Source: Sclerodactyla briareus
Taxonomy: Eukaryota > Echinodermata > Holothuroidea > Dendrochirotida > Sclerodactylidae
DNA length: 64,000 bases
Reading direction: 5' to 3'
NCBI GenBank assembly: GCA_026419785.1
Contig: JAODTK010003976.1
Location: 1 to 64,000 of the forward strand
The position numbers were made by a program, and so were the translations under genes. Each line of letters begins with the position of its first letter. Position 1 is the first letter of the stretch. Of the stretch, positions 3,836-63,095 are shown piece after piece. The notes below the pieces were generated by a model that saw only the letters and a program-made list of their open reading frames with translations, had not been told where the DNA came from and did not search any database.

Positions 3836-4193
3836 GGCAAATGGTAGAGTGGTATCAGTGTCACTTTACAACCAAGATATTCCGGGTCGAATTCCAGCAG
3901 TTACCGGACGGTTTTCCCTAGGTTGGATGGTCTTGGTCTTCATTTCATGATTCCGCTGTGATGCAGTGGCTTTTCTGGGGTTAGTGGAGTTTGTTACGTG
4001 ATGTTTGTTCCGTTTGTGAGCAGTCGACTCGAAACATTCCGCTCCTCATAGTCCAGAAAGTGTAGGTCATAGAGCATGAAGTGAGGGGACGTAACAGGGC
4101 GGCGGTCCCGGGAGCAGGTTGGGATTGGTTTACACCCCTGCCTCGTTATCAACCTGAGCCCTAGTCGAGAAGAGAAGGCGAGTATCGCCGGTG
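3836..4193 (+). mobile_element. tRNA-derived SINE, family A copy 1
   Basis: The tRNA-like head has an A-box-like GGTAGAGTGGTATCAGTGTC and a degenerate B-box GGGTCGAATTCC. The body contains GATTCCGCTGTGATGCAGTGG and a central CGGTCCCGGGAGCAGG. The tail is CTAGTCGAGAAGAGAAGG then CGAGTATCGCCGGT. It aligns along its length with 13105-13482 and in part with two other copies. Confidence 0.75.
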
Positions 4194-5938: not shown

Positions 5939-6134
5939 TCAAATTAATGATATAAAAGTGACGATGTCACTTGGCGAACTGACTGACACGTATAGCATAG
6001 GGATCAGTCGGTAAGATACTTGATATAATTGTGGCCCAGTACCGAAGAGGGTACAGGCCGAACACCATCGTTCTTCAGGTCCCTGTCACAGGAATTAATT
6101 GACTACTGTTCTTGTTTTCCGATACGACTGCCAG

Positions 6135-6538
6135 GGCAAATGACTGTCAGTCCCGCAGTATGGAGTTTGGGAGCGAAGGTACTATACAATGTGTCTTTCC
6201 GACAGACTTCTACAGCGTGGCTTGGTACAACAAGTCGGACACATCTGGGCCCATTCTCTTGTACAAGGATATGCAGCCTAGTGGGAGGGGGGTGTTTTGG
6301 GGGCGGGTGGGGGGTTTGTTTTTTTTCTTGGGAGGGGGGGGGGGGGGTGGCCTCTTTTTGGGGGATTTTGTTTTCTTTTTGGGGGGCGGGTTCGAAGCTG
6401 GGGAGTATGACGTCCAAACTGGTGCGCTCGCTAATCATCAGGGATGTTACCCTAGATCACGAAATTACCTTCAACGTAGTCATGTTTCTGACGGATTCAT
6501 CGGAGCCATAAGCATTAACACCGATATAATCGTCATTC
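6135..6538 (+). CDS. Ig V-type domain exon (first Ig domain of receptor)
   Basis: An extracellular immunoglobulin-like domain. The exon starts after CAG at 6132-6134 and ends before a GTGAGT donor at 6539. The B-strand reads GTIQC (Cys codon 6190-6192) and the C-strand VAWYN (Trp codon 6223-6225), followed by a C' strand ILLYKD. After an unusual G/T tract (about 6284-6388) the frame resumes as FEAGEYDVQ, then slips by one base to SLIIRDVTLDHEITFNVV and slips back to SINTDIIVI before the donor. The usual D-x-G-x-Y-x-C F-strand signature is replaced by DHEITFNVV, so the second canonical cysteine is absent; a cysteine near the start (NDCQS) could be an alternative partner. The motif set resembles sea cucumber Ig proteins from memory. 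Function (ligand, partner) is unknown. Confidence 0.75.
6284..6388. repeat. G/T-only low-complexity tract inside the Ig V exon
   Basis: About 105 bases made almost entirely of G-runs and T-runs interrupt the first Ig V domain between the C' strand and the FEAGEY segment. The length appears to be a multiple of three, so the frame used before the tract is the same after it. A normal V domain would have only two or three residues here. The G-runs could form G-quadruplexes or be an assembly or consensus artefact. Confidence 0.8.
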
Positions 6539-7630
6539 GTGAGTATTATTCGTCATTATTGTACTCAACTGTGTAAAGCGCGATGAAGAGCAAATCTTCT
6601 ATGAACCATGCTTTATACACTAACACTGTGGAATGCCACTGAATTTATTGTTACATTACAGTTACCGTTCAACACGAGAGGCTGAAAGTGAAGTAGTTGG
6701 CATATTGTCGAAGCGTGTTAATGACTCATGATCAATTTCTATCCAGGTACACATTACCTATTCTGTGTATAAGATGACAGAAGTATTCTGTTCTGCACCA
6801 TTGTTGCACGCATACGACATGAATTCACTGGTAGTGTTATGTGCACCATTACGTGGTAGTTGTGATTGATAGGAATTCATTGCAGCCTCTCCAAGAAACA
6901 CGTGGTCAAAGTAGTCGCAACCACTCTGCATATCAAGACTTACCATTGGAAGAAACTTCTAGCTTGACGAGAGAGAGGCTGTGTGAGAAATTCGTATTCC
7001 GATAAGACAGGAGCAAAAAATGCTATGCCGCCCATTACAATGAGTATTACACCATTAGTCCATGGTCATGTGTCTATTGCCATGGATTCAGTGTTAGTAC
7101 CCTGGTCAACACGACAGTTGTTCGGATGGGCGAAGCTTCCATGCTATACAGACATGGTAAGCCAAGATAATATGCATTAGACTAAGAGGACAAGTATTTT
7201 ACGACTCAGCTATTATCTCTGTGAAAACCTTGTGAAAAACTCGTAACACGTTGTGTTGTCTGACTGTGTGGTAACTGCTTGGTCCGACTCGCCAACAGGA
7301 GACCTATCGTCTAAAACAGTGTCCATGACTCTTGGTAAACCCCGTGCGCTTAGAAATTAGGCACAATAATTTAGGATTTTAACGTATTCCTAAAGTGATG
7401 GCAAAATGGTGTTCAATTCCCAACCATTGTTTTTGAAGTGTAAGCACGATTCCAGGTCTGTTCATACAGTCATACCGGGGACAATGGAAACTGACCACGG
7501 AATAGGGAACCCACTCAGTGATCCAGTCAAGCCAGAATATTATATTCGAAGAGCCTGGAACACCTTCCACTCCTTATCCAGATATATGATAATATTATAA
7601 CTATCACAACTACCCTTTTCTTCCTCGCAG

Positions 7631-8295
7631 AGAGAGACCAACAATCGAAGCGCCTGTCATCAAGGGACCCAGTGGAGATGGCTACATTCAATTCCAGGAA
7701 CTTCCGCGACCGACAACCTCACGTGCGTCATTAGAGACACTAGACCAGTCATAACACTAGCCTGGGAGCGGCAGTCTCCAGAGGCAACCACAACGTGTCT
7801 TATGATTATTCTGTCACGAACAGAACAGGGTTCTATTCTCATCGCTATTTAGCGGATGGCCTTGCCGATGGTTTGACTCTGAAGTTACTCAGCTGCAGGG
7901 CGGATGACACCTTGGGCTTATCAGAAGAACGGAAATCTTCCATCCCTATTCAAAAACGCCGAGATGACCTCCTGACTACTAACGGAAGATAGTGTAAGAG
8001 GATCTCAAAATCTGCTCCAGTGAAGTGGCTTTGTTCAGAGGTGATAAACAGTTGCTCGTGTGGAAGAAACAGAACTCCACTGGTCACTCAGGACCCCTGG
8101 CCTACAGCGGTTTTCAGGGACTATAATTTCGAAGGAGTTCTTGTGGGACGCACTCAGGAGTAGTAACCTTGCGAACCGCGACGGTGCCCTGGTCATTGAC
8201 TCGTGGAGGTCGCACGGGGGGAAGGTGTCTACGGTTGTATCTACAGCGAGGGGAAATCTAGAGGATACCACCCTCGTCGATTTGAGAGTTTACTA
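7631..8295 (+). CDS. Exon with tandem Ig C-type and Ig V-type domains
   Basis: The acceptor is the pyrimidine-rich stretch ending CGCAG at 7630 and the donor is GTGAGA at 8296. The exon opens ERPTIEAPVIKG, a typical inter-domain linker. The C-type domain has NLTCVIRDTRP (Cys 7724-7726), ITLAWE (Trp 7763-7765) and LKLLSCRADD (second Cys 7894-7896). With no intron between, a V-type domain follows: LKICSSEVALF (Cys 8013-8015), QLLVWKKQN (Trp 8061-8063), GALVIDS, and an intact F-strand VYGCIYSEG (Cys 8236-8238), ending TTLVDLRVY. At least four single-base frame changes are needed across the exon. Both domains keep their disulphide cysteines, unlike the first V domain. It is extracellular and follows the preceding V exon after a 1.1-kb intron. 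Confidence 0.75.
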
Positions 8296-9104
8296 GTGAG
8301 ATAGGCCCACTCATGACCCCAATATATCAGGTGAACATCGTGCTAGCAACTGAAGGATGAATTTAGGCCCGGTAACATTACAACGATATCGTATAGAACT
8401 TCACATGATTTTTCTATTAGAGGCTCATGATGTGTTAGCACTTTAGTATCATAGCGTAGCACCCGCTAATGGGTTGAAGGTCCTTATCCCATTTGGAAAA
8501 CTTTACATTTTCTCAGGTTCCATATCGCTAGAGGGAGCTCGATTATCGTCCATGTTAATCGTTATCGATATGACAGTCACTCAAAACAAAACTGATAAAA
8601 CCCAAAGGCAAACTACAACAAAAATTTGGTGTTTGTTGTGTCAGGAATTTATTGCCCAACCTGTTCCCAATCTCCCAATTCTCTCTTGGAGTGGGGGGCG
8701 GGTCGGGGGGGGGGCTCGAAAGAATTTCGCTAACGTAGAGCATTCCGAGACGTCTCAATGATTAAGCTAACTAATGGTACACGATTCTAATGTTTCCAGT
8801 TATTCCCTATTTGAGTTGTGGATACTGGCTATAACTCGCCTCACTTTTTTTGGCACCGGTGATAAGATATTGACGGAAGCAGGCAAGCTGCTTGCATACC
8901 CTACAATTTATTAGGTTCTCCATAACGTCCTCATCCTACAGTCGTGAGGTAGTATATTTAATATTCAGTTTTCCCCCCTAATTGACTGAAAGAGTAGCAT
9001 TCACATGTCGATCCTAAATACCACGTCGACCTATTGTATGTAGAATTAGTGTGTTAAAAGTGAATTATAACCGGTTATAATTCTGAGACTAAACACCGGC
9101 TGAC

Positions 9105-9260
9105 CAAATAATTAAGGAAGAGCGCGCAACACGCAATGCCTGCGTTCAGATTACGCGCAAACAAAAAGTCGAACGCGCGCAGAAATTTGCACGCGGTTTA
9201 GCTGTCGCAAAACACGATTACGCGATGTACAAGTTGCAAGCGCGAGTGTAGCTTGCACGG
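9105..9260. other. Short CGCG-rich island in intron
   Basis: Repeated GCGCGC, TACGCG and GCACGCGG words stand out from CpG-poor surroundings. A similar but shorter cluster (TTTGCGCGC repeats) lies near 60115-60150. It may be a transposon end or an unmethylated patch. Confidence 0.4.
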
Positions 9261-9354
9261 TTTATCGCAAACACTCCTGAAAAGTTTTGCTGCCAATTTT
9301 AGGGACTATTATCACACTTTTTGTATGAGCAGCAATATGAAAAGGGATGGGGTA

Positions 9355-9533
9355 TTTTATGAATGGGAATAATGAACAGATACTCGGGCCTTTGTTAGAA
9401 TTGAAACCGTTTGACGTCATAATAGTCGAAAACCCTCGGCTGCGCCTTGGGCTTTGCCTCCTATTATGACGGCATCCCGGTTTCAATTCTGCAACAAAGG
9501 CCCTAGTATCTGTGCATTTATTCCCGATATGAA
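9355..9533. mobile_element. Foldback (palindromic) element
   Basis: The left arm (9355-9425) and right arm (9461-9533) are reverse complements over about 65-70 bases with a few mismatches. They share GGGAATAA, ACAGATACT, GGGCCTTTGTT, GAATTGAAACC and GTCATAATAG. The loop of about 35 bases (CCCTCGGCTGCGCC and following) is itself partly self-complementary. No transposase is present. It resembles a foldback or MITE-type insertion in the intron between Ig exons. Confidence 0.85.
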
Positions 9534-9655
9534 AAACAAAACCACCAAATGGCCAGTATCGGTCCGTCGATTTGTTCACAGGAGGTAAAGTCTGTATTAG
9601 TTATGGGTAACCATACGGAACATTAACTGTCTTCCCCTCCGGACCATACGTACCT

Positions 9656-9982
9656 AGCCGGATTAGCTCAGTGAGTAGAGCTTAGGGATGTGATCGAAAG
9701 GTGGGAGTTGGCAAGGCGCTGTCATACCGCTTGCCACGTCCTACCAGGCGTTATTGGGAACCTCTGAGAGGTTACTCGTAATCACAAGTGCGCTATTAAC
9801 GATAGCCATGTGATGAAAATAGTTCCCGGGGGACATGTGTGGAGGGGAAACCACCGGCGGTTGCAAGGAGTGTATAGCTCGAGATGTGCACTATGGTGCG
9901 GGCCGAACGAGTCCCATTGACCGGAGGGTAATGGCCTTCAGCGCTTTAAGACCGTATTACTGTAATAAAGCGCTTCATAAGA
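9656..9982 (+). mobile_element. tRNA-derived SINE, family B
   Basis: The head GATTAGCTCAGTGAGTAGAG is a good tRNA A-box; the B-box is degenerate. After a GC-balanced body, the 3' end has AGCGCTTTA (from 9938) facing TAATAAAGCGCT (ends 9973), a hairpin-like AATAAAGCGC tail used by several animal SINEs that borrow LINE machinery. It shares no body with family A. Confidence 0.6.
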
Positions 9983-10431
9983 ACAGTATATTATTAAGAT
10001 ATTAGCCCAGCTATGCAACGAAATACTGGATTGACGGTGGTATGTAGATTGCTGGAGATGAATATTGAGTCATGTTTTTCGCACTTAGTTCGCTATGTCT
10101 GCGTAGGTTGCTGCATGGAGCGATGTTAAACGTACAAATGCGATCGCCTGTCGTTTCGGTGTTACTCGCACGTGGACTTTTTCTCTTGAATAGTACGGCA
10201 ATTGTCTGCCATCGCCTCTCTAGTTAATATTATAGCTCGGGGTACGAACGACTGGACCACACGACCGCGCAGCGCCATCTCGAACTGCTCTATTTTCCAC
10301 AACGAACCGTCCACGGAAGTCGTCAGACGCGGCAGACAGCCGTGAATTATGATGGCACCACCCCATTCCCGCCCTCAAATAACCCTAGGCATTGTTTTTC
10401 TTGCTTCCGTTGATCCACCCTCCCACCCGCG

Positions 10432-10731
10432 TGCTGGTGTAACAACCCTGACCAATACTGCACGTTAGAGGTGTGCCAAGCGGGAAACGGGAAACTCACC
10501 TGTACAATCAAAGGGATTCGCCCAGCGGTCGAAATCCAGTGGGCGGTATTCGATGAGAATCAGGCGGAGGCGATCACTTTCACAAACCAAGAGACTAGGA
10601 TAATAGAATACGGCGATAAAAACGATATCATCCTCTCTCCGATACGAGGTCAACTCCGAGATATCTTGGAACAGAATTACCCTCAAATGTATAGCTTCGG
10701 GACCTCATGCTGAAAGAAATTTGAATTTGGT
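10432..10731 (+). CDS. Ig C-type domain exon
   Basis: A second C-type Ig domain of the same style as the one at 7.6 kb. The frame reads CNNPDQYCTLEV, then GKLTCTIKGIRPAVEIQW (Cys 10501-10503, Trp 10540-10542) and AITFTNQETRI. A one-base shift near 10640 leads to YEVNSEISWNRITLKCIAS, giving the partner Cys at 10688-10690, and then GPHAE. The domain is complete apart from the slip. The splice acceptor is not clear (no good AG just upstream) and the donor after about 10731 is also unresolved, so both ends are approximate. The repeating V-C-V-C pattern suggests duplication of a two-domain module. Confidence 0.7.
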
Positions 10732-11644
10732 AGTCAGTGTTTTAAAATTTGAGATTCTGTTCACCAAAGGTAGGTGCTGGGGATTCGGAACTGCCCTCGT
10801 TCTCTCTCCAAAGATTAACAGCAATTGTTCACCTCTAGACCGATTGTTTAATCTCGTTGTTCGAGTAACTTAACATAGGTGATGATTACAATGGTGTTTC
10901 CATAGATGCGTTACCTGAATTGACTGCAAATTAAGGTAGTAACCTCCGGAAGTAGTCTATCCTTATTCAATATTTTGAAATCTACACTGACAACTACCAA
11001 TCAAAAGAGGTTTTTCGAGTTGGGACAGCAGGGGTCCTGAATATGCGATAAAAATTGAAGACTCGCTGGACCAATTTCCAAGGGGGTGAAATAAATTATA
11101 TATTTTCATATTTACAATGAATGAACGTTGCAATGTCTCATGATTAAATTCAAATTCTCCTGAACCGGAGACAATTTTATTCCCCGAATAGGAGACTCTC
11201 CCGGACAACAATTGGTTGGGCCCTTACATAACTTCTATCATACGCCAGTTGTTCCCACTGCGTTCGGCGTGTTCTTTTCAGCGAAGCTTTCGCAAAACTT
11301 CGGGGAAAATGATAGTTAGTTTGGTGAAGTGACATGGCAGATATGGCGTTTTAGTGGTTTACTGAGATGTGGTATTTGATAGATTTCAAACAATCAGTCA
11401 CTATATGAGTAATCGGAATCGAACACCAAAAGTTGCCTCGGTTGAGTGTTCCATAATGTTCTTGACGTTTTCAGTGATATTTCTCGAACAACGAAGCCTC
11501 ACGTAAGAATCTCATGATTCATCGAATTGGAATGAAAATCATCTAATCTGGTTAGAGGATATTCCAAGGGTGGTATATTCTCACAGTCAATGTCTCGCTT
11601 GATTCACTGATACAACAACGTGCTATATGTGACGAATAGACTGG

Positions 11645-11865
11645 TTCATGTTCGTTGTTAGGTCTTGAGTTCTTCTTCCGGCCGCGGTTAGTACGATATT
11701 ATGCTGCCACTTGAACGCAGTGTCTGGTCTATCTCTTACAAGCGCTCTTTCTCTGAGCTAAACGTTTCGCTTCCTACAGGCTCAACGCTGCCCATACTCT
11801 GATGTTGTCATACCACTGTTTTTGACGCCGACCCTTTCTTCCCTTCGGACCTTCCCTCCATAGTT
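11645..11865 (-). mobile_element. LINE 3' end, minus strand (GRRRQKxWYDNIR-type ORF2 tail)
   Basis: On the minus strand, frames give PKGRKGRRQKQWYDNIRVW, then LSL, EAKRLAQRK, and RDRPDTAFKWQHNIV with TAAGRRTQD. The block 'GR-RQKK-WYDNI-EW...EAKRLAQDR..WR.LV' is characteristic of the C-terminal end of RTE/L2-related non-LTR retrotransposons. Only the tail is present, with indels, and no reverse-transcriptase core is seen upstream. Confidence 0.7.
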
Positions 11866-12608
11866 GAAATTATGTTAGGTTTACTGCACGTCCGATCGAA
11901 TGTTGACCAAGGTAAGTGAGTTTCCTGCTGACAACTTATTAAAGCCAACTGTCCATTCACTCTAAGTTTCTCTTAGAGCATGGGTTTTTGTCCTTTTCCC
12001 CTCTCAGTGATTATCATCATTCGTCTCCAGATCAAACATTTCCGCAGCAATCAGTCGGTTTTCATCTCTTCAGTCCCACCCTACGAGCCATACAGTAGCA
12101 TACTCTACGCCAGGATCTCAAATCAAGCTCATTTTAGCTCTTTTGGCGGTTACCATATTCCAGAACGTCCTAAAAACGTTATTTTTCCTTTGTCCATTCC
12201 AATCCTGGCGTTCGATGTCCAATGTGCAGTTTGGATTTTAGGTTTTCACAAGAGCGCCGGATATTTAAAATAGCCAACCTGCTCAATTAGTTTACCATTC
12301 ATGCGACTGCTATGTAAAACCATATCCGAGGGAGCGAAAAACGACTGTAACCTAGCCCACACATTGATAAACAACTGGTGAAAGCAGTAGAGTCGTTGCG
12401 GACCGACAGACTGGGGATCCCAGGTTCAACAGCAGGGTTGATAAGAGTATGACAGCCCAGCCAAGCGGTGTCAATCGTAGTTCCCCACCATTTATCGCCC
12501 ACCATCTCTTCCATAGCATTCATCAGGACCAAGTAGAGTAGGAGGGTTTATCGCTTTACTTTATATCGATGAAACATTTGACAAATGTCAATTTTCTTCG
12601 TATTTCAG

Positions 12609-12658
12609 ATGATTCCTTGGAAACAAGGACACGTTTACAACCGGTTGATATGCGGGTG
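12609..12658 (+). CDS. 50-nt linker/stalk exon
   Basis: Fifty bases lie between a strong acceptor (pyrimidine-rich run ending TTTCAG at 12608) and a GTGAGT donor at 12659. Read with one base borrowed from the previous exon, it encodes a hydrophilic segment DSLETRTRLQPVDMRV with no cysteine. It would lie between the last Ig domain and the membrane. It ends in phase 0, which matches the start of the next 50-nt exon. The function is probably a spacer. Confidence 0.5.
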
Positions 12659-13104
12659 GTGAGTGTGATTGGAGAGCCGCGGGGATCTCATTATATTGTA
12701 CTAGTCATATGTATAACAGTACTGGAAGTAAGAAGTAGTAGAAGTAAGTATTCAAGCAATTGGCCTCGTTATCAATAATGCACCCTGCGGCGAATGCAGG
12801 ATTTGCCCACCCTGGGCGCGGCTCACCATCTGCGCGGAGCGGCGAGCCATTGGCTTACCCGGATATTACCCTCATCATCAGCCTGAGAGGGAACCGTTTA
12901 TACTCACACTATCCTTTGAAAAAATATAGTGTTGCTCTCGTGGTTGAATGAACTGAAATAAAAAATGATCTCTAACTGGCATATGTCGAATCTACATGTG
13001 ATTGTTGGTTATTCATTCTCCACATACATACTCAAATATAAATGGGCCAACGCCATACGGTTGACAGCATTGGATCATCTGCCCGTCACCCCTTAGTTAT
13101 GCCC

Positions 13105-13482
13105 GAGGAGTGGTAGAGTGGTATCAGTGACAATTACAAACAAATATTCCGGTTCTAATTCCACGGTCAAGTAATGATTTTTCTCCAGCTGCTGCACTTA
13201 CAGTTGTGATGGGCGAGGTCTTGGCTTCACCTCAGGGTTCCGCAGTGATGCATTGGATTTTCTGGGTTACTGGGATGCGTTACGGATATTTGCAATAAGT
13301 CCGTCTGTCGGCTGTCTGACAGTCACTCGACGTGAACGTGCCACCCGCTCCTCCAGGTTCGAGAAAGTTGTCGTGTCCTGGATTCACTGATAGTCAATTT
13401 CGGATGGTTGGGTTGGTTACAACCGCTGCCATCGCTATCATCTGGAGCCCTAGTCGAGAAGAGAAGGCGAGTATCGCCGGTG
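13105..13482 (+). mobile_element. tRNA-derived SINE, family A copy 2
   Basis: The head is GTGGTAGAGTGGTATCAGTG with ATTCCGGTTCTAATTCCA. The body has GGTTCCGCAGTGATGCATTG and the tail CCCTAGTCGAGAAGAGAAGG followed by GTATCGCCGGTG, collinear with copy 1. It lies in the intron between the two 50-nt exons. Confidence 0.75.
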
Positions 13483-13792
13483 TCAGCTACACTAATACGG
13501 CAGTTTCCTAATGGGCCTTAATTGATTCCGTAGAAATTAAAATCTAATCAAATCGATACCCAGAGCCCCATCAGTAACGACGGATAAAAACGTGCTAACG
13601 TCACACGTGCTACACCGCGCATCACAACTACTGTCGTGTGGTTTCCACCTCAGAATCCTGTGTGACAACTATCGATTATATCAGAACAGCCGGTGAAGTA
13701 TAATGGGGCTATTAGAATCAGTTGATAAATCGGAAGAATTGCTTTTCTGCTTAGATACACTATGATGTACAGACGTATCTATATTTTTTCAG

Positions 13793-13842
13793 TCACAGAA
13801 CGGAGACGAAGCAAGGAAAACGCGTCCACTGACAGAGGGGGA
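13793..13842 (+). CDS. Second 50-nt linker/stalk exon
   Basis: It is preceded by TATTTTTTCAG and followed by a GTAAAG donor at 13843. In phase 0 it reads SQNGDEARKTRPLTEG and leaves GA for the next exon. Those two bases plus the T at 14507 complete an aspartate codon and open the transmembrane exon in its correct frame, so no frame repair is needed from 12609 to 14636. This segment is charged and hydrophilic, which fits a membrane-proximal stalk. Confidence 0.5.
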
Positions 13843-14506
13843 GTAAAGGTTAGCCTACTTGAACAGTAATTTCTATCATTCTTTTTTTTACCTCTCTTAT
13901 TTTTCTACCGCCGCTTTTATCCACATATCTTCTAACCATATTTCAAGGATGCTGATGTCTCCTAGTCTCGGGGCTAATCCCCGACCCCGATAATTAACTC
14001 AGCTTAACACCCTTCTGGCCGGTTCTCGATTTGTCCACCTGTTATCAGAAGGCATACATCAGTCAATGGGTTAGCACCCCCCCACATTAGCTGTGTTTGA
14101 TTGTTGTGGCTGCTGAACTCAAGATGAAAATGAGTAACAGCCTATTCACGGTCACGTCACTGAGCTTAAAAATATATGATTGTGTCGAAGGTCAACTCAC
14201 CTGACCTGACCTTCCGCAGGAAATCCTTTAACAGATTCCCACATAGTCATCAATAATAACATAGCATAGGGAACTTGGGTTGATTTTTTTCCAACGAGTA
14301 GTGGGATGTTGGGGTACTTCTAATCTGGTAACTTTTAATCAAGCTAAAACTCCAAACCTGCTTATTTCTGGACTGTGCGATTCTGACACACCGTTCCTTT
14401 CATGGCTGATCGGGTCCTATATTCTTGGTATGGGAAATCACAATAACTTTCCTTGAACTCTCATATCAAGTCTATCGCTACTAATTCATATTGTACTTCC
14501 CAACAG

Positions 14507-14636
14507 TTACTGCTTTACAAAACCCACTTCCCGCGGTATATGGTGCCAAATATGTGGGTGGGTCTTCGTCATCGGCCTCCCGGTTGTCCTGATCGTATAC
14601 ATAAAAAAGGTTATTTACTCATCAAGACGACCGACC
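14507..14636 (+). CDS. Transmembrane-helix exon of the receptor
   Basis: The exon follows an acceptor ending CCCAACAG at 14506. In the phase set by the preceding exon it reads YCFTKPTSRGIW and then a hydrophobic helix WVFVIGLPVVLIVYI of roughly 18-20 residues. It is closed by a stop-transfer charge cluster KKVIYSSRRPT, a classic type I single-pass anchor with the basic side facing the cytoplasm. A stop codon at 14637 would end this frame, and no good GT donor precedes it. Either a base is missing here, or the Ig receptor ends at this exon with a very short tail. This is the key uncertainty for the fusion model. Confidence 0.55.
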
Positions 14637-14654
14637 TGATTCTACTCTTCACTT

Positions 14655-14975
14655 CTTCCCAACCGTATCCCTGCCTTTATGGCAGTGTTTCTTCTTCTTC
14701 CGAACTTCCGGAAAGCTGGACCCGCCCTTTTGCACGATGGTTACTCGCCGTACTCATTCTGACCCACGCTCGCTCCGTTTTCCCTCACACCGTGGTGCAT
14801 GGAATTCCCTTCCTCAAGATTTGTTTTCCTTTCGTCTTATCGTCCAGCTGTTCGAGTGCAGATTCAATAGGCTGGATCGTTCCTCTTGTTCGTAGTCTCC
14901 TGTGCATATGGGTTGCCCCTATCATGTGTATCAGCGTGGTTCGCAAACTACTACAATACACATATTCACAATAAT
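14655..14975 (+). mobile_element. Possible non-LTR retrotransposon 3' fragment
   Basis: The plus strand carries a frameshifted reading resembling the end of a LINE ORF2: RSVFPHTVV in one frame, and AWNSLPQDLFS with FECRFNRLDRSS in another. This is the 'pRt-WNsLP' tail seen after the reverse transcriptase in CR1/L2-like elements. No catalytic reverse-transcriptase motif is present, so this is at most a truncated 3' end inserted in an intron. Confidence 0.4.
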
Positions 14976-15240
14976 TCGTGATTTTTTAACATCGTGCCGA
15001 CCCGCAACCATGGAATCTTGCCTGAACGCCTAACCCCCGAACACGAGGTACCGGTATTTTTTCAATACACTTGTGACCCTATCTGCACAATTTTCAGCCT
15101 AACGAGAATGGCCTAAACGTGTTAACGCGACCGAGTATTAACTACTCCATACTCGTGTTTCCATTCGAACAAACATTTTCAACACCAACAGATAATTATG
15201 AAGCATTTTATACTATCGAACGTATTCAATCTCATTGCAG

Positions 15241-15290
15241 GAAGAGCGATGATTCCTTACAAACCAATCCCAAAACCAAAAAACCAATCA
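15241..15290 (+). CDS. Candidate 50-nt cytoplasmic linker exon
   Basis: The acceptor is ATCTCATTGCAG (ends 15240) and the donor GTTAAT begins at 15291. Read with one leading base it encodes KSDDSLQTNPKTKKPI, hydrophilic and lysine-rich. It lies between the transmembrane exon and the NACHT exon and has the same length as the two stalk exons. The donor is weak and the upstream phase cannot be checked, so this is tentative. Confidence 0.35.
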
Positions 15291-16027
15291 GTTAATTTTT
15301 TGGGGAATGGCAAATACTGCCAATGCCTCCAAGTAGCATTACCTATATATTCGCAATGTTTATAAATTGAATGTTGTTATATTGAACATAGAGTAGAACT
15401 ATTAGGTGAAAAGGCGGAATAAAGAGTAATATTACGTTGTAAAATTAGAAGAAAACCGAACCGGGTGAGATCACGTCTTAGCTAGCCTATCACGGCATAC
15501 GTGGGTTACGATGACTATTTACTTCCTAACGGAGTTTTTATCTCATCTTTAGGAATACCCTCTTGAAGGAAGGTAAGCTCGTAGGTACTTGTTCCATCCC
15601 GACAGCAGCGTAGTTACAAGTGTTATTCATAGTCTCTACAGAAAAACAGTGGTGTTTGACCAGTTGTGGGCATGTTTCAATCATTTTAACGTCAATATGT
15701 ATACGTACAGATACGTTTTGAGGTACTCTGCCATGTACATAGTGTTTCTGCGGAGCATACTCGTTTTCAGGGCCATGTGTTTTTCCGAAACATTGTTCTA
15801 GTTAGTGTGTGAAAAGGTAACCTACGAATCTATTACTTTTGATGCAGACGTTGGCGAAGGTAACTCAGAATGATAGCCTAAACTAGAAAACAACAGTGTC
15901 GCAGTAAATGTAATGGCAACACCGAAAATGGAATTACCGGGTAAATTTGTGATCGATCACTAGTGCGAGAGGGCCTTGTCGAAGTTTCCTACTGACAGTA
16001 GTTCCCACCTTCTCCCCTCATTCTCAG

Positions 16028-17532
16028 TTCACACACAGATTTGGAGCTATTTCACCACTGCGTGGGAAGTCCGAAGACCGTCTAACCCATGCACAAGCCA
16101 TTCCATATCTCTCTAAAGAATTTATTCTTTAAAATAAATTGTTTGTTGAAGGCGGACTGAAGATGTGGAAACGAGTGGACTTGAACATGGGAGGAATATA
16201 TCGTCTATCGCTGAAATTTCCAACGCCACACGATACATTATCGAAGGCGAGCGGTTTGGGAAACAACATTAACCCTGCAGCTAGCCTATGAAGGGTGGCG
16301 AACAATACCGAACACCAATGGAACCCTATGAACTGCTGATTCTTCTCTCTTCGTCTCCGGCATTTAGCTGGTATTTCCTCCTCACTCTTGGAGGCTATCA
16401 AAAAAGGCATCTTGCCACGAGACCCTTCCCTTCGAAAACTATTATTCGTTTAATATAAAGAAAGCATATCGTCTGGTTATATTGACGGCTTCGATGAGTA
16501 CTCAAGTCAAGACACCGACAACGGGTTCAGACTTAAATGACTATAATTGAAGAATGCAATGTTGAAGAGATAAAGTGGTCGGTCTCACGACGCGTCCATC
16601 GCCCACCTAAGAGAGGTTGTACCGGTGCCAAGAATCATGAAAGAGACAGGGGGTTCGATAAGCAATGCCAATCAACCTACCTTCGCAAAGCGGTTGTCGT
16701 CGAAGACGCAAATGCAGAGGAAAGATCCATGGAGTATTTCGTGAATAATCCAGTCGTTGCCGATATCTGTCAGACTCATTATTTTTCGTGGATTTTCGCT
16801 CACGTGTCTTGCGAAGACCCAACTCATGACTGGTCAGTTCGTTACCTTGTTCTTTCCGGTAATATCATCACGTGTTTCATCCTCATAGATTATAAACTAA
16901 CCGGAGATTCAAAGAGAGAGGCAAAACTGTTCCATAGTAAATTCTCAGAAACTTAGTCAGTTGCCTTCAAAAGATATGTGAGAACAATGAAATGAACGAA
17001 TGGACAAGAACGAGGTATCTAAAGAGATTGGTGAGGGCTGTTGACTCACTCCTTAGAATCGGGTATTCTAAGATTCAGTACAAACCCGGAAGTGAACGAT
17101 GATCCGGGAATGAGTTTCCGCTGCTGATGCCGAGCGCGTCCACTTCTATCACAGGCTTTTTCTGTGAATGGTACGGCGGCTCATATATGGCAGATGAACT
17201 TTGAAAACCTCCTCAAATCGGAAACTGGAGCGGGAGATTTGCAAGGCATGCGGAACGCATTTGGGAAGACATCAATCCAGTTGATATGCAGTACATGTTC
17301 CGTTTTGCCTGCGGTCCTGAAGGGAGAAGTAGCCGACATGATAATAGCCTACTCAAAAATTTGCAAGGTGACAAATTCGCCGTGTTGTGTTCTTTCGAGC
17401 AAGGCGGAAAAATCGAGTATATCAAAAACGCCCTCCTACGCTGTGCGAGGATATCATCTACAATTGCCGCGAAGATCGAGGCTCCAGAGACGGTCCACAC
17501 TCCAACTTCTAGGAATTGCGTCCATGAATGAG
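16028..17532 (+). CDS. NACHT (STAND) NTPase exon, NLR-type
   Basis: A long exon after a strong acceptor (CCCCTCATTCTCAG, ends 16027), ending at a GTAATA donor at 17533. The order of motifs is that of NLR NACHT modules. A pre-NACHT segment AIPYLSKEF leads to LFVEGGLK. The Walker A region lies at 16243-16290: EGE, FGK, then TLTLQLAYE after a one-base deletion inside the GKT. Walker B is DGFDEY at 16484-16501. A sensor-like segment GFDKQCQSTYLRKAV is at about 16649-16695, followed by YFVNNPVVADICQ (16735-16774). The conserved RVHFYHRLF and CEWY lie near 17130-17175 and DMQYMFRFACG is at 17284-17316. The end is STLQLLGIASMNE. About ten single-base slips are required. The family acts as an ATP-switched oligomerising signalling platform in the cytoplasm; the trigger here is unknown. 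Confidence 0.85.
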
Positions 17533-17719
17533 GTAATAATTCCTAATCCTCTTAAATGCTTTCCTCATCATCAGCAAGGGGAACAAAATATGCTTTTCAT
17601 TGCGACTCACATGAAAGGGAAAAGAAAAAGGAGTATATTGTAATCATTGTTGACGGAGATAAAAGCAAATTCCAATTCGTAAAGCTTTTGTTCCCATGAA
17701 ACTGCGGAGGAAGTTGCAC

Positions 17720-18125
17720 ATGGCCTTTGTTACCTTCCACCTTGACTTTTGTAATGGCTTGCTTTGTTGGTCTACCTCTTGCTGAGCTTACAAAGCTTCT
17801 GCACATACAAAATGCTGCGGCCCGGATTGCACACGTTGTTCCAACTCAGGGCAAGATATTACCCTGTGCTGGACAACTTCCACTGCACGTCCTCTATACA
17901 CCAAGGCCCAGCAAGGACAAACTTTGGAGAGCGAATGTTCTCCTGGTCCGGACCTTCTTTGGTGGAATGCCCTTCCCAACGACATTTGCATGTCACGCGT
18001 TTTGACTCCTTCACGTCTTGGGTGGAATCCCACCTTTATTCATTTGTTCCTTCTTAGGATTTTCTTTCTTGCGCTCAGAGGCCTCTGCATTGCGCCGTAT
18101 ACAAATGCTGTTTCTTGTTATTAAT
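17720..18125 (+). mobile_element. CR1/L2-like LINE 3' fragment (reverse-transcriptase C-terminus)
   Basis: The frames read FHLDFCNGLL, LPLAELTKLLHIQNAAARI, then DNFHC and, after a loss of sequence, FGERMFSW, AGPSLWNALPND-like residues and DSFTSWVESHLY. This is the C-terminal part of a non-LTR retrotransposon ORF2 downstream of the catalytic core, on the plus strand, with an internal deletion between the 'LDNLHW' region and the 'FGERSFS' region. The tail LRGLCIAPYTNAV followed by AT-rich DNA matches a LINE 3' end. It sits in the intron after the NACHT exon and is dead on arrival. Confidence 0.75.
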
Positions 18126-18531
18126 TATAAACCATATCGATATATAAAATCATAATTTTGGGAGGACAGCGCCTGCTCCAAGTTTTCATATCGACCCTGT
18201 AATAGGCCTCCCCTGGCCGACTTATGTCCATTACCTCTCAATTTCAAACCCTGTTGAACTGAATGAACAAATAGCAGAAAAAATCAAAAGCACTGTTACA
18301 AATACGGTTTATTGTATCTTTCACACTGTCTAACAATACTTTTTTATGAGCACATATCTCTGGGTTCAGTCATTTTCAATATCCCTTCTAAAACGATTCA
18401 AGACCATTAAACGATTCTAAGATTACGACGTTCATGACCACGATACTACTGATCACAGGTGAAAGACTCTTAATTATAAATCGTCGAGTTCACTTATTTT
18501 GCTTTGGGGTATTACAATGTTACTTGAGGGA

Positions 18532-18585
18532 GGTTGTGGCGAGGGCTTGTGAGCCAAGCATACCTGGGTTCTAGTCCCGCAACGG
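18532..18585 (+). repeat. tRNA-like fragment
   Basis: TGGCGAGGGCTTGTGAGCC followed by CTGGGTTCTAGTCCC has A-box/B-box spacing and a B-box-like GGTTCTAGTCC. The acceptor ends do not pair, so this is a tRNA pseudogene or SINE head rather than a tRNA gene. Confidence 0.35.
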
Positions 18586-18760
18586 TTTTTTTCCCACATT
18601 TCTATTTCCGCAATTTGCCCAGGTGAAAGTAGAATATTCCGGGAGAAGTTTGTTCATTTGAGCGCTGATGTTTCTTCTGACATAAATTGAGATTGCAGAA
18701 GCGGCGTCTCTCAGATCGCTTTATTATCCAGTATATTACATATTAAAAAACAAGTTGCAG

Positions 18761-19043
18761 GAATACCGAGACGAAACCAGCCCTCGGCAATGTTACCTAC
18801 ACGCCACACGCCGTTTCATATTGCTTCAGACAACTCATATTTGTTTGAAAAAGTCTTGGGCCCAACAACACTTAACTTGCTGCTCCTCCATCACTGCTCT
18901 AATGAAGAAACTCTTTCGAATCCATCAACAGATACCCATTACGAATGTGTGGATTAGCGAATCCTTTATATCAGTAGACGCAAATCCATTACTGAGATTA
19001 CGCTTGACGACTGCCTGTAGTTTGCCCATCTTGAATACTATAA
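18761..19043 (+). CDS. Candidate C-terminal exon downstream of NACHT
   Basis: The exon is flanked by CAAGTTGCAG (ends 18760) and a GTGAGT donor at 19044. One frame is open for about 70 codons and reads TPFHIASDNSYLFEKVLGP then LNLLLLHHCSNEETLS. After single-base slips, KSITEITLDDCL and AHLEYYK lead into the donor. The leucine-rich strand-like pattern ITEITLDDCL would suit the region after NACHT in echinoderm NLRs, where leucine-rich repeats often follow. I do not see a full LRR consensus. It is assigned to this gene by position and strand only. Confidence 0.4.
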
Positions 19044-33975: not shown

Positions 33976-33979
33976 CAAA

Positions 33980-34915
33980 TGGACGTGTGTTACAACCGAT
34001 AGTGAAGTAACCAACCGATACTGAATCACTAACCGAAATGATATAAAAATTGACCGATCATGATCAATCACTACCGATAATGAATAATTTGACCGATAAG
34101 GAAGTAACTTTCCAACCGATAGAATCTGGGTCTAACCGAGAATGAATTAACATTTTCTAACCGATAATGAATCAACCATTTGAAACGGATATTGAAGTAA
34201 CTTTTTATGAATCACTAACCGATAATGATACACAATTTGAACCGTAATGAATCACTACCCCATAATGATCTAACAATTGACCGATAATGAGTTAACTTTT
34301 TTCATTTTTCAGGAATGGGTGGGGGGAGGGGGGGGGGTCACGAAACCCGTTTACCGATAACTCCGGTCAAACGATGGTCCTATCGGGCTGAAATTGGTTC
34401 CCAATCTATTTCTTCAATGCAATTCCTATCGCGACTATTTATTGTGGTACAAAAATCAAAGTGGCGGATTTTAAAACAAATTTGTGAACCAGGTAATTCG
34501 GACCGTAGAATCCGAATTGAGTGTCCCCCGTGAGCAATTTTGCAATTCTTCGATTTGACAGCCTCCGATTCGCATAGGTTCTATGTCAAATAGTGTTTAA
34601 AACTGCTATTTCAGGCCGAGTTGAGGCTAGGAAATGCTTCAAACATCTTTTTTAATTTTCCCTCCAGTGAACGAGTGAAAACACCCAAGTCGGACATATA
34701 TTATGCATCTCATCCCGACCCGGATCCAATGAGCTATACCCAGAGCCATATCATATTGCGCCTTTACCGATTTTTAACAGTCCTCTGAAATGCTAGATTG
34801 CCCAAGCACCATCGCTATATCTGGAAACAAAACTAAAACAAGGGGAGGAACATGAATTGCCTCATTGTGTTCCGCCGCCCAACTATCCCGGTTCCGTTAT
34901 TTTTAATTTTGATCA
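33980..34915 (+). repeat. Left arm of a 6-kb inverted-repeat composite
   Basis: The outer 310 bases (33990-34290) are a tandem array of about 17 degenerate 16-20-bp units built on AACCGATAATGAATCA. Inward come a G-run with GGTCACGAAACCCG, then TCGGGCTGAAATTGG, AGTGGCGGATTTTAAAA, ACACCCAAGTCGGACATATA, GTGTTCCGCCGCCCAAC and TTTTGATCATGAGTGGGCGG. All of these recur in inverse order and orientation in the right arm (39170-39992). Divergence looks high, perhaps 25-35%, with indels. Confidence 0.8.
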
Positions 34916-37394: not shown

Positions 37395-38580
37395 ACCATA
37401 GGGTCTCCTATACTCTTGTAAAGGCCACCCCTATTTTCAAGGATTTCAACTTTTGAACCTATGGTGACCCTCAAAACAATAGGTTACATTTACTCATCAT
37501 GGAGCACACATACCAAGAGAGATCATCCATTCAGTGTTGGGTCGAGTTATCATGTTTCACAAGCCATAATTGGCCAATAAATTGTTTCACAAGGTTTTCA
37601 TACTTTGACCTCTGGTGACCTCCGATACCTCTGACCTGACCCCAAAACAATAAGGTTCATGTAATCATCATGGGGAACATACACTACAAGTATAGCTCAT
37701 CCATCTAGGTGGGGTCTATTTATCGTCACAAGCCAAAATTGTGCCAAATTATTGACTTTTCAACAACTTTCTATTTTTGACCAAATCACTCCGCCTATAC
37801 CAAAAACAATAGGGTTTCCTGTACTCCCATAAGGAGAGCTCCACACCACATTTGAACCCTGATCAGACCAACCTTCGGACTTATCGTTTCACAGGTTTTT
37901 TTTTTTTTCAAGACCTTGACCCCTCTGGTGACCTCAGATGACCTCTGACCTGACCCCAAAACAAAGGTATATGGACTCATCATCATGGAATACGCATACC
38001 GTAGACTTCATCCATCATGTTGGGTTAGTTATCGAATGTTCACAAGCCAAATTGCCAAATTATTGACTTTTCCAGCCACTTTCACCAATTTCCTATTTTT
38101 GACTAAAATTCACCTCCAACTATCCCAGAACAATAGGGTCCTGTACTCCCCCTAAGAACGCTCTACAACCACATTTGAAACCCGATCCAGACCAACCATT
38201 TCGGACTTTCGTGTTCACAAGGTTTCAGACCTTGACCTCTGTTGACCGCTCAGATGACTCTGACCCGACCCCAAAACATAGTTCTGTACTCCTCATGGGA
38301 AACACCCTCAACTATGAGCTTCATCCATCTAGGTTTGTCGAGTTATCGTGTTCACAAGCCCAAAATTGGCCAAATTATTGACTTCACCAATTTTCTATTT
38401 TGACCAAAATCACCCCCGACCCCTACCAAAAACAATGGGTTCCTGTACTCCCCCTAGAAGCTACACCTTCAGATGGACCTCTGACCTGACCCAAACATAG
38501 GGTCAGTTCTTATCATGGGGGACACATATACCAAGTATGAAGCGTTCATCTCCGGTGGGGTCAAGTTATTTGTTCACAAG
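37395..38580 (+). repeat. ~156-bp tandem monomers in a ~312-bp higher-order unit
   Basis: The word CAAAACAATAGGG (with variants) recurs at about 37475, 37643, 37800, 37955, 38127, 38268 and 38425, a 141-172-base spacing. Two monomer types alternate. Type A continues with ATGTACTCATCATGGGG, GTATGAGCTTCATCCATC and GGGTCGAGTTATCG. Type B continues with TCCTGTACTCCCC, CACATTTGAAACC and AGACCAACCATTTCGG, then GACCTCTGGTGACCTCAGA. Both end near GTTCACAAG-containing text. The array ends in CA-rich sequence. Confidence 0.85.
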
Positions 38581-38583
38581 CCA

Positions 38584-38665
38584 ATGCGTCACACACATAC
38601 ACCACACACCATACCACACGCACACCACACACAAACACACACACACACACATACAGACACACACC
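38584..38665. repeat. (CA)n-rich microsatellite
   Basis: An imperfect CA run follows directly on the tandem array. Minus-strand copies of the array family at 25.2 and 27.9 kb also carry a GT-rich stretch at the corresponding edge, so it belongs to the repeat. Confidence 0.85.
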
Positions 38666-39169: not shown

Positions 39170-39992
39170 CATGCTCAAGATCAAATGGTAAAAATAGACT
39201 GAAGGCTGTTTGGGGCGGCAAATACGAGGGCGCAATTCACTTCCCCATATCTTGTTTATTTTTTGAGATATATACGCGACGGCAGCTTAGGAATCTTGCT
39301 TTTTGAGTGACATAAATGAACTCGGGGTAATAGCGAATTTCATCATATATTCCGACTTGGGTGTATATTCTACTTGGTCGCTAAAGATAAATCGGAGTTT
39401 GTCATATCGATTAAGTGTAAAATTTTCATCACCTGAACACTTTATTCGGATTTCACGGATCCGACTGACCCGTTCTCTTTTCTTTCTGCACTCCACCATC
39501 TTTCCGCCATTTAAAATTTTTGCGTACTCGGCCGTAAAGATTAAAAAAATACATATCGGATAGAAACACTGGCATTTCAGCCCGACGACCTCTTTTGACG
39601 GAGTATGTTACGGTTTCCGTGACCCACCAACCCCCCCCCCACCCATTCCCTCGAAAAAGAAAAAGTTACTTCATTATCGGTCCATTTTGCATATCAATTA
39701 TCGTTAGTGACATTAGCGGTCAAATTTTATATCATTATCCGTTAGTGATTCATAAAAAAGTTACTTCATTATCGGCAAATTGGTGATTCACTTATCGGTT
39801 GAGACATTGTTACTCCATTATCGGTTAGACCCATGATCATTAATCGGTTGAAAAGTTACTTCATTATCGTCAATTTTTATATCATTATCGGGTGTTACTT
39901 CACTATCGGACTCACATTTTTATATCAATTATCGGTAGTGATTCTTATCGGTTGGTTACTCATTATCGGTGGTAACAAGCGTGCATAAAAAC
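39170..39992 (-). repeat. Right arm of a 6-kb inverted-repeat composite
   Basis: The reverse complement of this segment matches the left arm in order: CGTAACATACTCCGTC, TCGGGCTGAAATG, AATGGCGGAAAG, GAAATCCGAATAAAGTGTTC, ACACCCAAGTCGGAATATAT, TTTGCCGCCCCAAAC and TTTGATCTTGAGCATGG. The outer part (39668-39975) is the inverted ATTATCGGTT tandem array. The outermost GGTAACAAGCGTGCAT corresponds to GGACGTGTGTTACAACC on the left. Confidence 0.8.
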
Positions 39993-60700: not shown

Positions 60701-62045
60701 AATTGCTGAAATGACTGCCAACCCAATTAATACTTCACTACCGGTAACTAAACGGAACGCCAGCCAGGGGTCCTGAAGTACTCAGCGAATACAGCGGGAG
60801 GGGGCCATGGGTCCGGACCCACTTACCCCGCTATGTGGATGTCATCTGGATGAATGACCCTCTCATAGACTCCCCCTTACAAGATGACAATGACCCTAGA
60901 CATTACATCTTCCGTGTGTAAACCTCCGAAAATTTGGCGTGCTATTCGCGCGCGTTGCCACTCTCGTTAACGTATTGTACTTTCACCTCATATACTGCAA
61001 AGGTCCAAGAGCAATATGTGAGTATACATACATCCATTATGCCCATGTTCTATCATGCCCTCAATGTCTTACACATAGGTCTCTTCTAAATTTCAAGAAC
61101 CCGTGATTGAATTTCTTTCTTGAGTTTTTTTTCTTATTGTCAAAGGAGCAATACCTAGTTGTATAAGCAATAGATGGGGGCGAAAAGACAGTATATTCCC
61201 CGCGGGCGAGATTCCGTGAGAATCGTGTTGTATAGTTGAAGAAACATGCAAAACAGTACCGTATTCAACACTAACTGACAGAGGCTGATTTGATGATGGC
61301 TGTTATTCAAATCCGTATTTGACCGACATGTTCATCAACATTCTGTGAGTTCTGCGCTCTGCGTGAATGTGGTGTATTGTTGCGATTCCCTGGCCGCCTT
61401 CACGACCGTAGCCCATACGTCGTATGTTAGTGTGTGGATCAAGTACCATGGACTATACCAGCCTTTTTGTTTTACATATGCATGACTTATTAGCCACAAT
61501 TTGTGGATCTCTAACCAACGGCCAGAAAGAAACTAACTGACCTTCACCCAATCGCATCTCATTCCAGGTGAAAATGCAAAATTATTTCCAAAATAGAATG
61601 AGTGTGAACGTGTGCTTTTGCACCGAATTGCATCTGAGGCCACGTAGAAATGAAAAAGTTTAGAACCCTCCCACAGCCCACCACTAATCTCCACCCCCAT
61701 AAATCATCTCCACTAAATATCAAAACAACTTTGTTAAACGAAAATTGAAGGCACCGAAATTAGGCACCGTGGTTTTTAGTGTAAGACTAAATTATTAATA
61801 GGATTCGAGCCAGCGACTTTACATGCAAAAACTTGTACCACCGCCTTTCCCCTTCTCCTTTGTCTCTGATAATTTACGAACGACGAATACAGGACAAATA
61901 CTTCTCATAGTCAGAATCCATTATTTCCAACAGGGTATTTTCGTGCAGTTATTTGTGCTGACCAGCAACAGGTCGCACACCGACCGTGGAATTAGAATTT
62001 CCCAAACTGCCATCTTCGCGCTGATCATACTGCTCTTTACGCTCT
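57800..62045. other. No gene recognised
   Basis: Short palindrome ATATAAGGATTCCTTATAT at 57820, T-run at 59506-59517 and G/C-run element edge at 60583-60650 (minus-strand CAGGCCCGTACGCAGG). A weak tRNA-like B-box lies at 61803. No coding segment is supportable. Confidence 0.35.
58812..58975 (+). repeat. Short degenerate tandem repeat (~50 bp, 3-4 units)
   Basis: CGTAAATTTTGAGGACGGAT, GCTAAATTTTACC, CGTAAATTTTGAAAACGGG and CGTAATTCTGAGAACGG recur about every 50 bases, each followed by a GATACCAGA- or GACACTAGA-like word. Confidence 0.6.
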
Positions 62046-62049
62046 TGTT

Positions 62050-63095
62050 CCCTTTTTGCACGGAGCATTCTGCTCCTTTTCCGCGGAGCAAACACTTCTC
62101 TTTACACGCGGTCGGCGCGGAGCAAACTGCGCAATCTTGCGCGGGACATTGAACTGCTCATTTAGCTCTGACATTGCTTCTTCACGAATCTTGCTCCCTT
62201 ATTGCGGCAGTGCGACTGATCTTTGCGCGGAGCAAAGACTGCTCTTTTGTGCGAACAAACTGATCATTTTGCGGCGGAGCATATTCTGCTCATCTTGCGC
62301 AATCAAAAACGTGCGTGGGGCGAACACTGCTCTTCTCGCGCGGAGCAAACACTGTGCATTCTTGTGCGGAGCAAAAAACTGCGCATGCTTGCGCGAGCAA
62401 ACAACTGCTCATTTTGCGCGAACAAACTGCCTCATTATGGCGGCGAAGCAACCACTGCTCTTTTCGCGCGAAGCAAACGGCTCATTCTGGCGCGGATCAA
62501 ACACTGCGCTTTTTGCGCAAGCAAGCACTGCGTGGGGCGGGTACTTCCATTCTCCTCGCGCGAAGCAACACTGTCATTCTTGTGGGAGCACAAAAAAAGA
62601 ACCTGTACATTCATGCTCGGTCAAACACTGCTCAATTTTGTTGCGCGAGCAACTGCTCATTTTTGGGTGCGCGGAGGCCAGCATTGTTTTCTCCTGCGCC
62701 AGCAAACTGCCCATTTTGCACAGAGCAAAACCGGTTTTTTTTCTTTTTTTTTTGCGCGGAGCCAAACTGCGTGGGCGCACACTGCTCTTCTCGCCCGAAA
62801 TCAATTCTTTGTGCGTACTACAATACTGTCTCATTTTTGCGCGATCAAACCTGTTTTTTTTTTTTTTGCGCGGAGCAAAAAACTGCCGTGGGCGAACACT
62901 GCTCTTCCGCCCAAGCAAATTCTCTTGTGCGTCGTAGTCAAAAACTGGCTCATTTTGCGCGGATCACACACCTGCTCTTTTTGCGCGGAGCAATTTATAT
63001 TTTGCGCTGAGAAACACTGCTCTTAATTTGCGTGGAGCAACTGCTCATTTTGGCGGCGGAGCAAACATGGCACTTCATTTCCGCGAGCAAAACAC
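62050..63095. repeat. GC-rich minisatellite, GCGCGGAGCAAACTGCTC unit
   Basis: Roughly three dozen degenerate units of about 24-30 bases built on TTTTGCGCGGAGCAAACTG plus CTCA. Each unit contains the small palindrome GAGCA-AAC-TGCTC and a GCGC. Absence of stop words leaves all three plus-strand frames open for 230-290 codons, which explains the long overlapping ORFs. The frames encode repetitive, cysteine/serine-rich sequence without family resemblance, so I do not call a gene. Confidence 0.9.

Follow-up and report, generated by a model that had tools for sequence, protein, structure and literature searches.

A putative gene for an AjNLRC4-type Ig-transmembrane-NACHT receptor in the sea cucumber Sclerodactyla briareus

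The first 64,000 nucleotides (nt) of contig JAODTK010003976.1 of the sea cucumber Sclerodactyla briareus (assembly GCA_026419785.1), referred to here as the window, carry between positions 6135 and 19043 a succession of exons for immunoglobulin-like (Ig) domains and a NACHT part. The region very probably represents one split gene on the plus strand, which would begin at 6135 or further upstream, end at about 19150 and encode a holothurian receptor made of Ig domains, a transmembrane (TM) helix and a NACHT part, of the type of AjNLRC4 from Apostichopus japonicus. The features of the locus are the following:

6135..6538, plus strand: Ig1 exon (V-like), AG before and GTGAGT after
7631..8295, plus strand: Ig2 and Ig3 exon, CAG before and GTGAGA after
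about 10418..10769, plus strand: Ig4 exon, donor AAAG/GTAGGT; start approximate, no acceptor identified
12609..12658, plus strand: candidate stalk exon, 50 nt, TTTCAG before and GTGAGT after
13793..13842, plus strand: candidate stalk exon, 50 nt, TTTCAG before and GTAAAG after
14507..14609, plus strand: candidate TM exon (plausible, unproven), placed by hydropathy of QICGWVFVIGLPVVLIVYI
16028..17532, plus strand: NACHT exon (linker, NACHT, winged-helix part), CTCAG before and GAG/GTAATA after
16484..16501, plus strand: Walker B, DGFDEY, aligned to the Walker B of relatives
17533..18931, plus strand: probable last intron, donor and acceptor present
18932..about 19147, plus strand: probable C-terminal exon (IPITNVWISESFISVD...), end uncertain, placed by frame-tolerant alignment to relatives

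The start of the Ig1 exon at 6135 is consistent with the acceptor AG at 6133-6134. Within the coding stretches of the window, the frame is broken every few dozen codons. Nine single open reading frames (ORFs) gave no useful match in Pfam, because their frames are too broken. When joined pieces were used, V-set was matched by Ig1 with an E value of 2e-4, below the curated cut-off, and weak Ig-type matches were obtained for Ig2 and Ig4 and none for Ig3. The identification of the domains rests on relatives, not on Pfam. A first protein search with joined pieces of the window returned one match, a NACHT protein of Holothuria leucospilota (P0001, E 1.6e-16). The family search used the Ig pieces of the window together with P0001 as the query, scored only the 7992 candidates sharing most words and returned 195 proteins. 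Among the best 120 of these 195, 103 were from H. leucospilota or A. japonicus and 17 came from contigs labelled 'lgn'. Fourteen lgn proteins exceed 1000 amino acids (aa), and for nine of them the frame takes up roughly 70% or more of the contig, which suggests that these contigs are spliced transcripts.

Profiles of ten family segments were built from 31 relatives and run against the ORFs of all six frames; the highest score among 20 dinucleotide shuffles served as the reference. All seven Ig and NACHT segments exceeded this reference on the plus strand, in the expected places and in order. The Ig1 profile reached 37.8 bits (best shuffle 12.5), Ig2 20.1 bits at 7703-7786 (12.5), Ig3 12.4 bits (8.8) and Ig4 63.3 bits (8.1), while the three NACHT-part profiles reached 18.8, 19.6 and 50.6 bits (9.6, 10.7 and 11.9). 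The Ig2 profile scored higher on the Ig4 exon (24.1 bits) than on its own site. Frame-tolerant alignments of the Ig domains, given here for the best of the relatives tried, were compared with null maxima from 12 random segments per domain. Ig1 shares 46 of 92 residues with P0023 (score 161, null maximum 41) and Ig4 shares 43 of 108 with P0003 (165, null maximum 37); the best scores for Ig2 and Ig3 were 144 (null maximum 38) and 88 (null maximum 36). A preliminary description of this locus had named four Ig-like domains in order on the plus strand, and this is borne out by profiles and alignments alike.

The same description had reported a full series of NACHT motifs. In frame-tolerant alignments, the NACHT exon is identical to P0003 at 197 of 472 residues over 16049-17541, to P0006 at 196 of 473, to P0023 at 203 of 461 and to P0002 at 137 of 356. 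Walker B (IDGFDEY), LTTRPS, FYHRL/FCEWY and FACG are retained; Walker A (GLG.TTLTLQ) is present in the alignment but is crossed by frame breaks, so that the series stands with this reservation. We take these motifs to be Walker A, Walker B, the sensor arginine and the winged helix. They occur in the alignment in the order of the NACHT clade of STAND (signal transduction ATPases with numerous domains) NTPases, and the activity is predicted. The motifs that are kept would make a nucleotide switch possible.

Whether the exons form one gene was approached through 121 relatives, with matches taken at E <= 0.01 and a collinearity tolerance of 30 residues. The Ig exons and the NACHT exon are both matched by 70 of the 121 proteins, and in 69 of these 70 the matches are collinear. 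Ig and NACHT parts are present together in 76 proteins, a hydrophobic helix lies between them in 66, and 58 possess four Ig domains, the helix and all three NACHT segments. Because relatives carry the parts collinearly in a single chain, and because the NACHT exon begins at an acceptor whose position falls within the family protein, the predicted membership of the Ig, helix and NACHT exons in one gene is supported. For this copy, the single transcript assumed in the preliminary description is a prediction from the relatives.

The helix itself was sought between the Ig4 and NACHT exons. The segment QICGWVFVIGLPVVLIVYI at 14547 has a mean hydropathy of 2.31 and is followed by KK. It is the most hydrophobic of six such segments on the plus strand of 10770-16027; the frequency in the rest of the window predicts about 3.7 for this interval, and its minus strand has one. 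The two stalk exons that had been described together with this helix have splice-like borders and no homology evidence. Both stalk exons and the TM exon at 14507..14609 are plausible candidates. Pieces of one repeated element, 70% and 87% alike, were observed at 3842-4193, upstream of the gene, and at 13111-13482, in the interval between Ig4 and NACHT.

The exon from 18932 is probably the C-terminal exon. Of 28 motif-bearing relatives, eight align to it with scores of 55-71, above the null maximum of 53 from eight control segments, and the other 20 do not exceed that maximum. P0001 reaches this exon (55 against a null of 45), whereas P0003 does not. Truncation of the C-terminus by a long interspersed nuclear element (LINE) was also considered, and was dropped once a C-terminal exon with donor and acceptor turned up beyond the LINE-like stretch. 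This stretch, at about 17700-18060 in the probable last intron, is presumably the end of a LINE reverse transcriptase with broken frames; it gave no match in Pfam.

Several results weigh against a single receptor gene. No signal-peptide exon was identified at the locus, nor did the profiles for the transmembrane, linker and C-terminal segments exceed the shuffles there. A juxtamembrane family profile failed to detect the exon at 14507..14609, and the C-terminal profile did not detect the exon from 18932 (6.1 bits, against 13.1 for a shuffle). The preliminary description had proposed a search for single holothurian proteins with both ends; such proteins were found, as given above, while in the window itself V-set stayed below its cut-off and the joined NACHT piece gave no match to the NACHT model of Pfam. 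Among the relatives, 51 of 121 lack a match to the Ig exons, to the NACHT exon or to both, and P0037 is the one of the 70 that is not collinear. The link between the exons comes from relatives and splice signals, not from cDNA of this copy. A later protein search for the nearest relative found none among 104 candidates, which is no evidence of absence, because even the known family was missed.

The frame breaks raise the question of whether this copy is alive. Alignment of the NACHT exon to P0003, P0006 and P0023 reveals 33, 31 and 33 frame breaks with 3, 3 and 1 stops, respectively; against P0002, over a shorter stretch, there are 20 breaks and 3 stops. If these were real mutations, the gene would be the same but dead, and no receptor would be made. 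This is a sub-case of the single-gene reading, with which its probability overlaps, and it is considered rather unlikely. Simulated indel-rich sequencing error produced 13-31 breaks and 0-3 stops, simulated neutral decay 10-27 breaks and 4-13 stops, and simulated intact sequence 0-3 breaks and no stops. The breaks in the exon far exceed the stops, unlike in simulated decay, and their ratio fits error-rich sequence better than old decay; the Ig exon alignments are free of stops and the NACHT motifs are retained. On the other side, the NACHT alignment scores with three relatives (543-613) fall within simulated decay (295-910) and below simulated error (808-1236), although different pairs are compared, and the branch of the window is long in the tree described below. 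A block of almost pure G/T inside the Ig1 exon would also fit a dead copy. This block, at about 6281-6393, occupies the site where 33 residues are inserted in frame compared with the family, and is either a simple-sequence expansion or a sequencing artefact. A mixture of sequencing error and decay is possible. The sequence is too error-rich to tell whether this copy is intact or works.

Two adjoining genes, one for an Ig membrane protein with its end near 14.6 kb and another for a NACHT protein starting at 16.0 kb, are highly improbable. In their favour, the 5.3 kb between Ig4 and NACHT hold no homology-proven exon, and NACHT occurs with no Ig match in 45 of the 121 relatives, some of which may be truncated gene models. 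The 69 collinear chains, the acceptor inside the family protein and a NACHT tree favour one gene. That tree holds 119 regions, two of the 121 having been dropped by length. All 45 Ig-less members fall in one clade of 91 (support 0.927) with the window outside it, and Ig is carried by 35 of the 40 nearest tree relatives of the window, compared with 74 of 119 overall. The window has a long branch after re-rooting, and midpoint rooting left it alone. The tree is of little use for placing the window.

As for the remainder of the window, a further copy of the gene was sought with the relatives, which at E <= 1e-3 matched nothing beyond the labelled regions; at the looser E <= 0.01, four of their matches fell outside 6000-17700. 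None of the matches was on the minus strand. No tRNA was found in the window by ARAGORN with the bacterial code, and there was no Rfam match. An inverted repeat at 33979-34394 and 39574-39986, 79% alike over 434 columns, resembles DNA transposon ends. Tandem repeats occupy 37465-38584, with weaker copies near 25.3, 27.9-28.2 and 0.5-0.7 kb. An imperfect direct-repeat array at 61996-63091 retains an open frame of 313 aa at 61996-62937, which gave no match in Pfam.

The architecture of the family was examined in P0003, for which a structural model was made from a 31-row alignment (mean predicted local distance difference test score, pLDDT, 81.6; predicted template modelling score, pTM, 0.54). 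The model contains an N-terminal helix, four beta domains, a helix at 476-493 and a part resembling NOD-like receptors (NLRs). A structure search matched it to tandem Ig proteins in the PDB, and its NACHT part to NLRP3 (8ej4) and NLRP2 (9l4k) with Foldseek E values of 6.1e-17 and 3.7e-15. Because the whole-length TM-scores are low (0.22 and 0.28), the placing of the parts relative to each other is unreliable.

The topology was studied in the 58 complete relatives. Presence of the helix was a criterion for their selection, and, being related, they are not independent. The seven segments follow in strict order in 54 of the 58. In all 58, lysine and arginine together are more numerous over the 15 residues that follow the helix than over the 15 that precede it (means 5.66 and 1.19). 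A hydrophobic, signal-peptide-like start was found in 41 of the 49 complete relatives with at least 15 residues before Ig1. The excess of positive residues on the side of the helix that leads to NACHT, together with the hydrophobic starts, speaks for the Ig part being outside and the NACHT part inside. The reverse, with NACHT outside and Ig inside, was reported for AjNLR-new from TMHMM, surface binding of recombinant NACHT and localisation (PMC13133943). It is scarcely credible for this family, given the charge excess in all 58 complete relatives, a set of related proteins compared without PIK48001.1 (AjNLR-new) itself, and given the signal-peptide-like starts, which may be mistaken for a membrane helix by a predictor. 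A hydrophobic motif within NACHT (ILSDLCQVPLLFVIFAHMT in P0003) was found in 95 of the 121 proteins, with a median hydropathy of 1.56, and may correspond to the second helix published for AjNLRC4 at 776-795. Neither this second helix nor the extracellular NACHT of AjNLR-new agrees with the charge distribution and the structural model obtained from the relatives.

Judged by its relatives, the receptor would have a signal peptide and a single membrane helix, with Ig outside and NACHT inside. By analogy with the published AjNLRC4, its Ig ectodomain might bind microbes or their polysaccharides, the receptors might pair, and the inner NACHT part might bind actin and drive particle uptake. The direct coupling to a STAND oligomerisation switch would be a further step. 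More broadly, it is proposed tentatively, at somewhat less than an even chance, that the surface NLRs of sea cucumbers form a large repertoire of type I proteins, in which four extracellular Ig domains are combined with an intracellular STAND switch, that topology was misread both for the second helix of AjNLRC4 and for the NACHT part of AjNLR-new placed outside the cell, and that ligand-driven clustering of the Ig parts triggers NACHT oligomerisation at the membrane. Ig outside with an NLR switch inside would unite two kinds of immune recognition that are kept apart in most animals.

NLRP3 and NLRP2, whose fold the modelled NACHT part of P0003 appears to share, are cytoplasmic and carry a leucine-rich repeat (LRR) domain and PYD. 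The family departs from canonical NLRs, as neither an LRR nor an N-terminal death-fold domain was found among 15 Pfam families in 31 relatives. In sea cucumbers, six NLRs with other domains, V-set among them, are described in Chiridota heheva, whereas no V-set is reported for the NLRs of sea urchin (PMC8913654). Sponge NLRs with membrane helices are noted in the accessible part of PMC12909245, and the corresponding parts of PMC11797021 and PMC13228809 add nothing on the Ig-TM-NACHT build.

The membrane-anchored Ig-NACHT protein had been presented as new in the preliminary description; this no longer holds, as the architecture is already published for AjNLRC4 (PMC8699970, PLoS Pathog 2021) and AjNLR-new (PIK48001.1, PMC13133943, J Biol Chem 2026). 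AjNLR-new has Ig, TM and NACHT in a single protein of 1197 aa, like the relatives, but is reported with NACHT outside and Ig inside, and the charge pattern of the relatives argues for the reverse. The four-Ig, one-helix, NACHT-inside plan common to the 58 complete relatives bears on this disputed topology. AjNLRC4 is described as a receptor of the membrane whose Ig domains face outwards and whose NACHT part lies inside; it is reported to bind microbes, to drive their uptake through actin and to form dimers via its Ig domains, and its inner part to bind actin. It has Ig domains, a helix at 483-503 and NACHT at 600-757, with no LRR or CARD reported in the text at hand. The order of these parts is the same as in the relatives of the window and their spacing is similar. 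Compared by description, two Ig domains and two helices are reported for AjNLRC4, whereas the relatives have four Ig domains and one helix. To this published type of receptor the window adds one gene with its exon layout.

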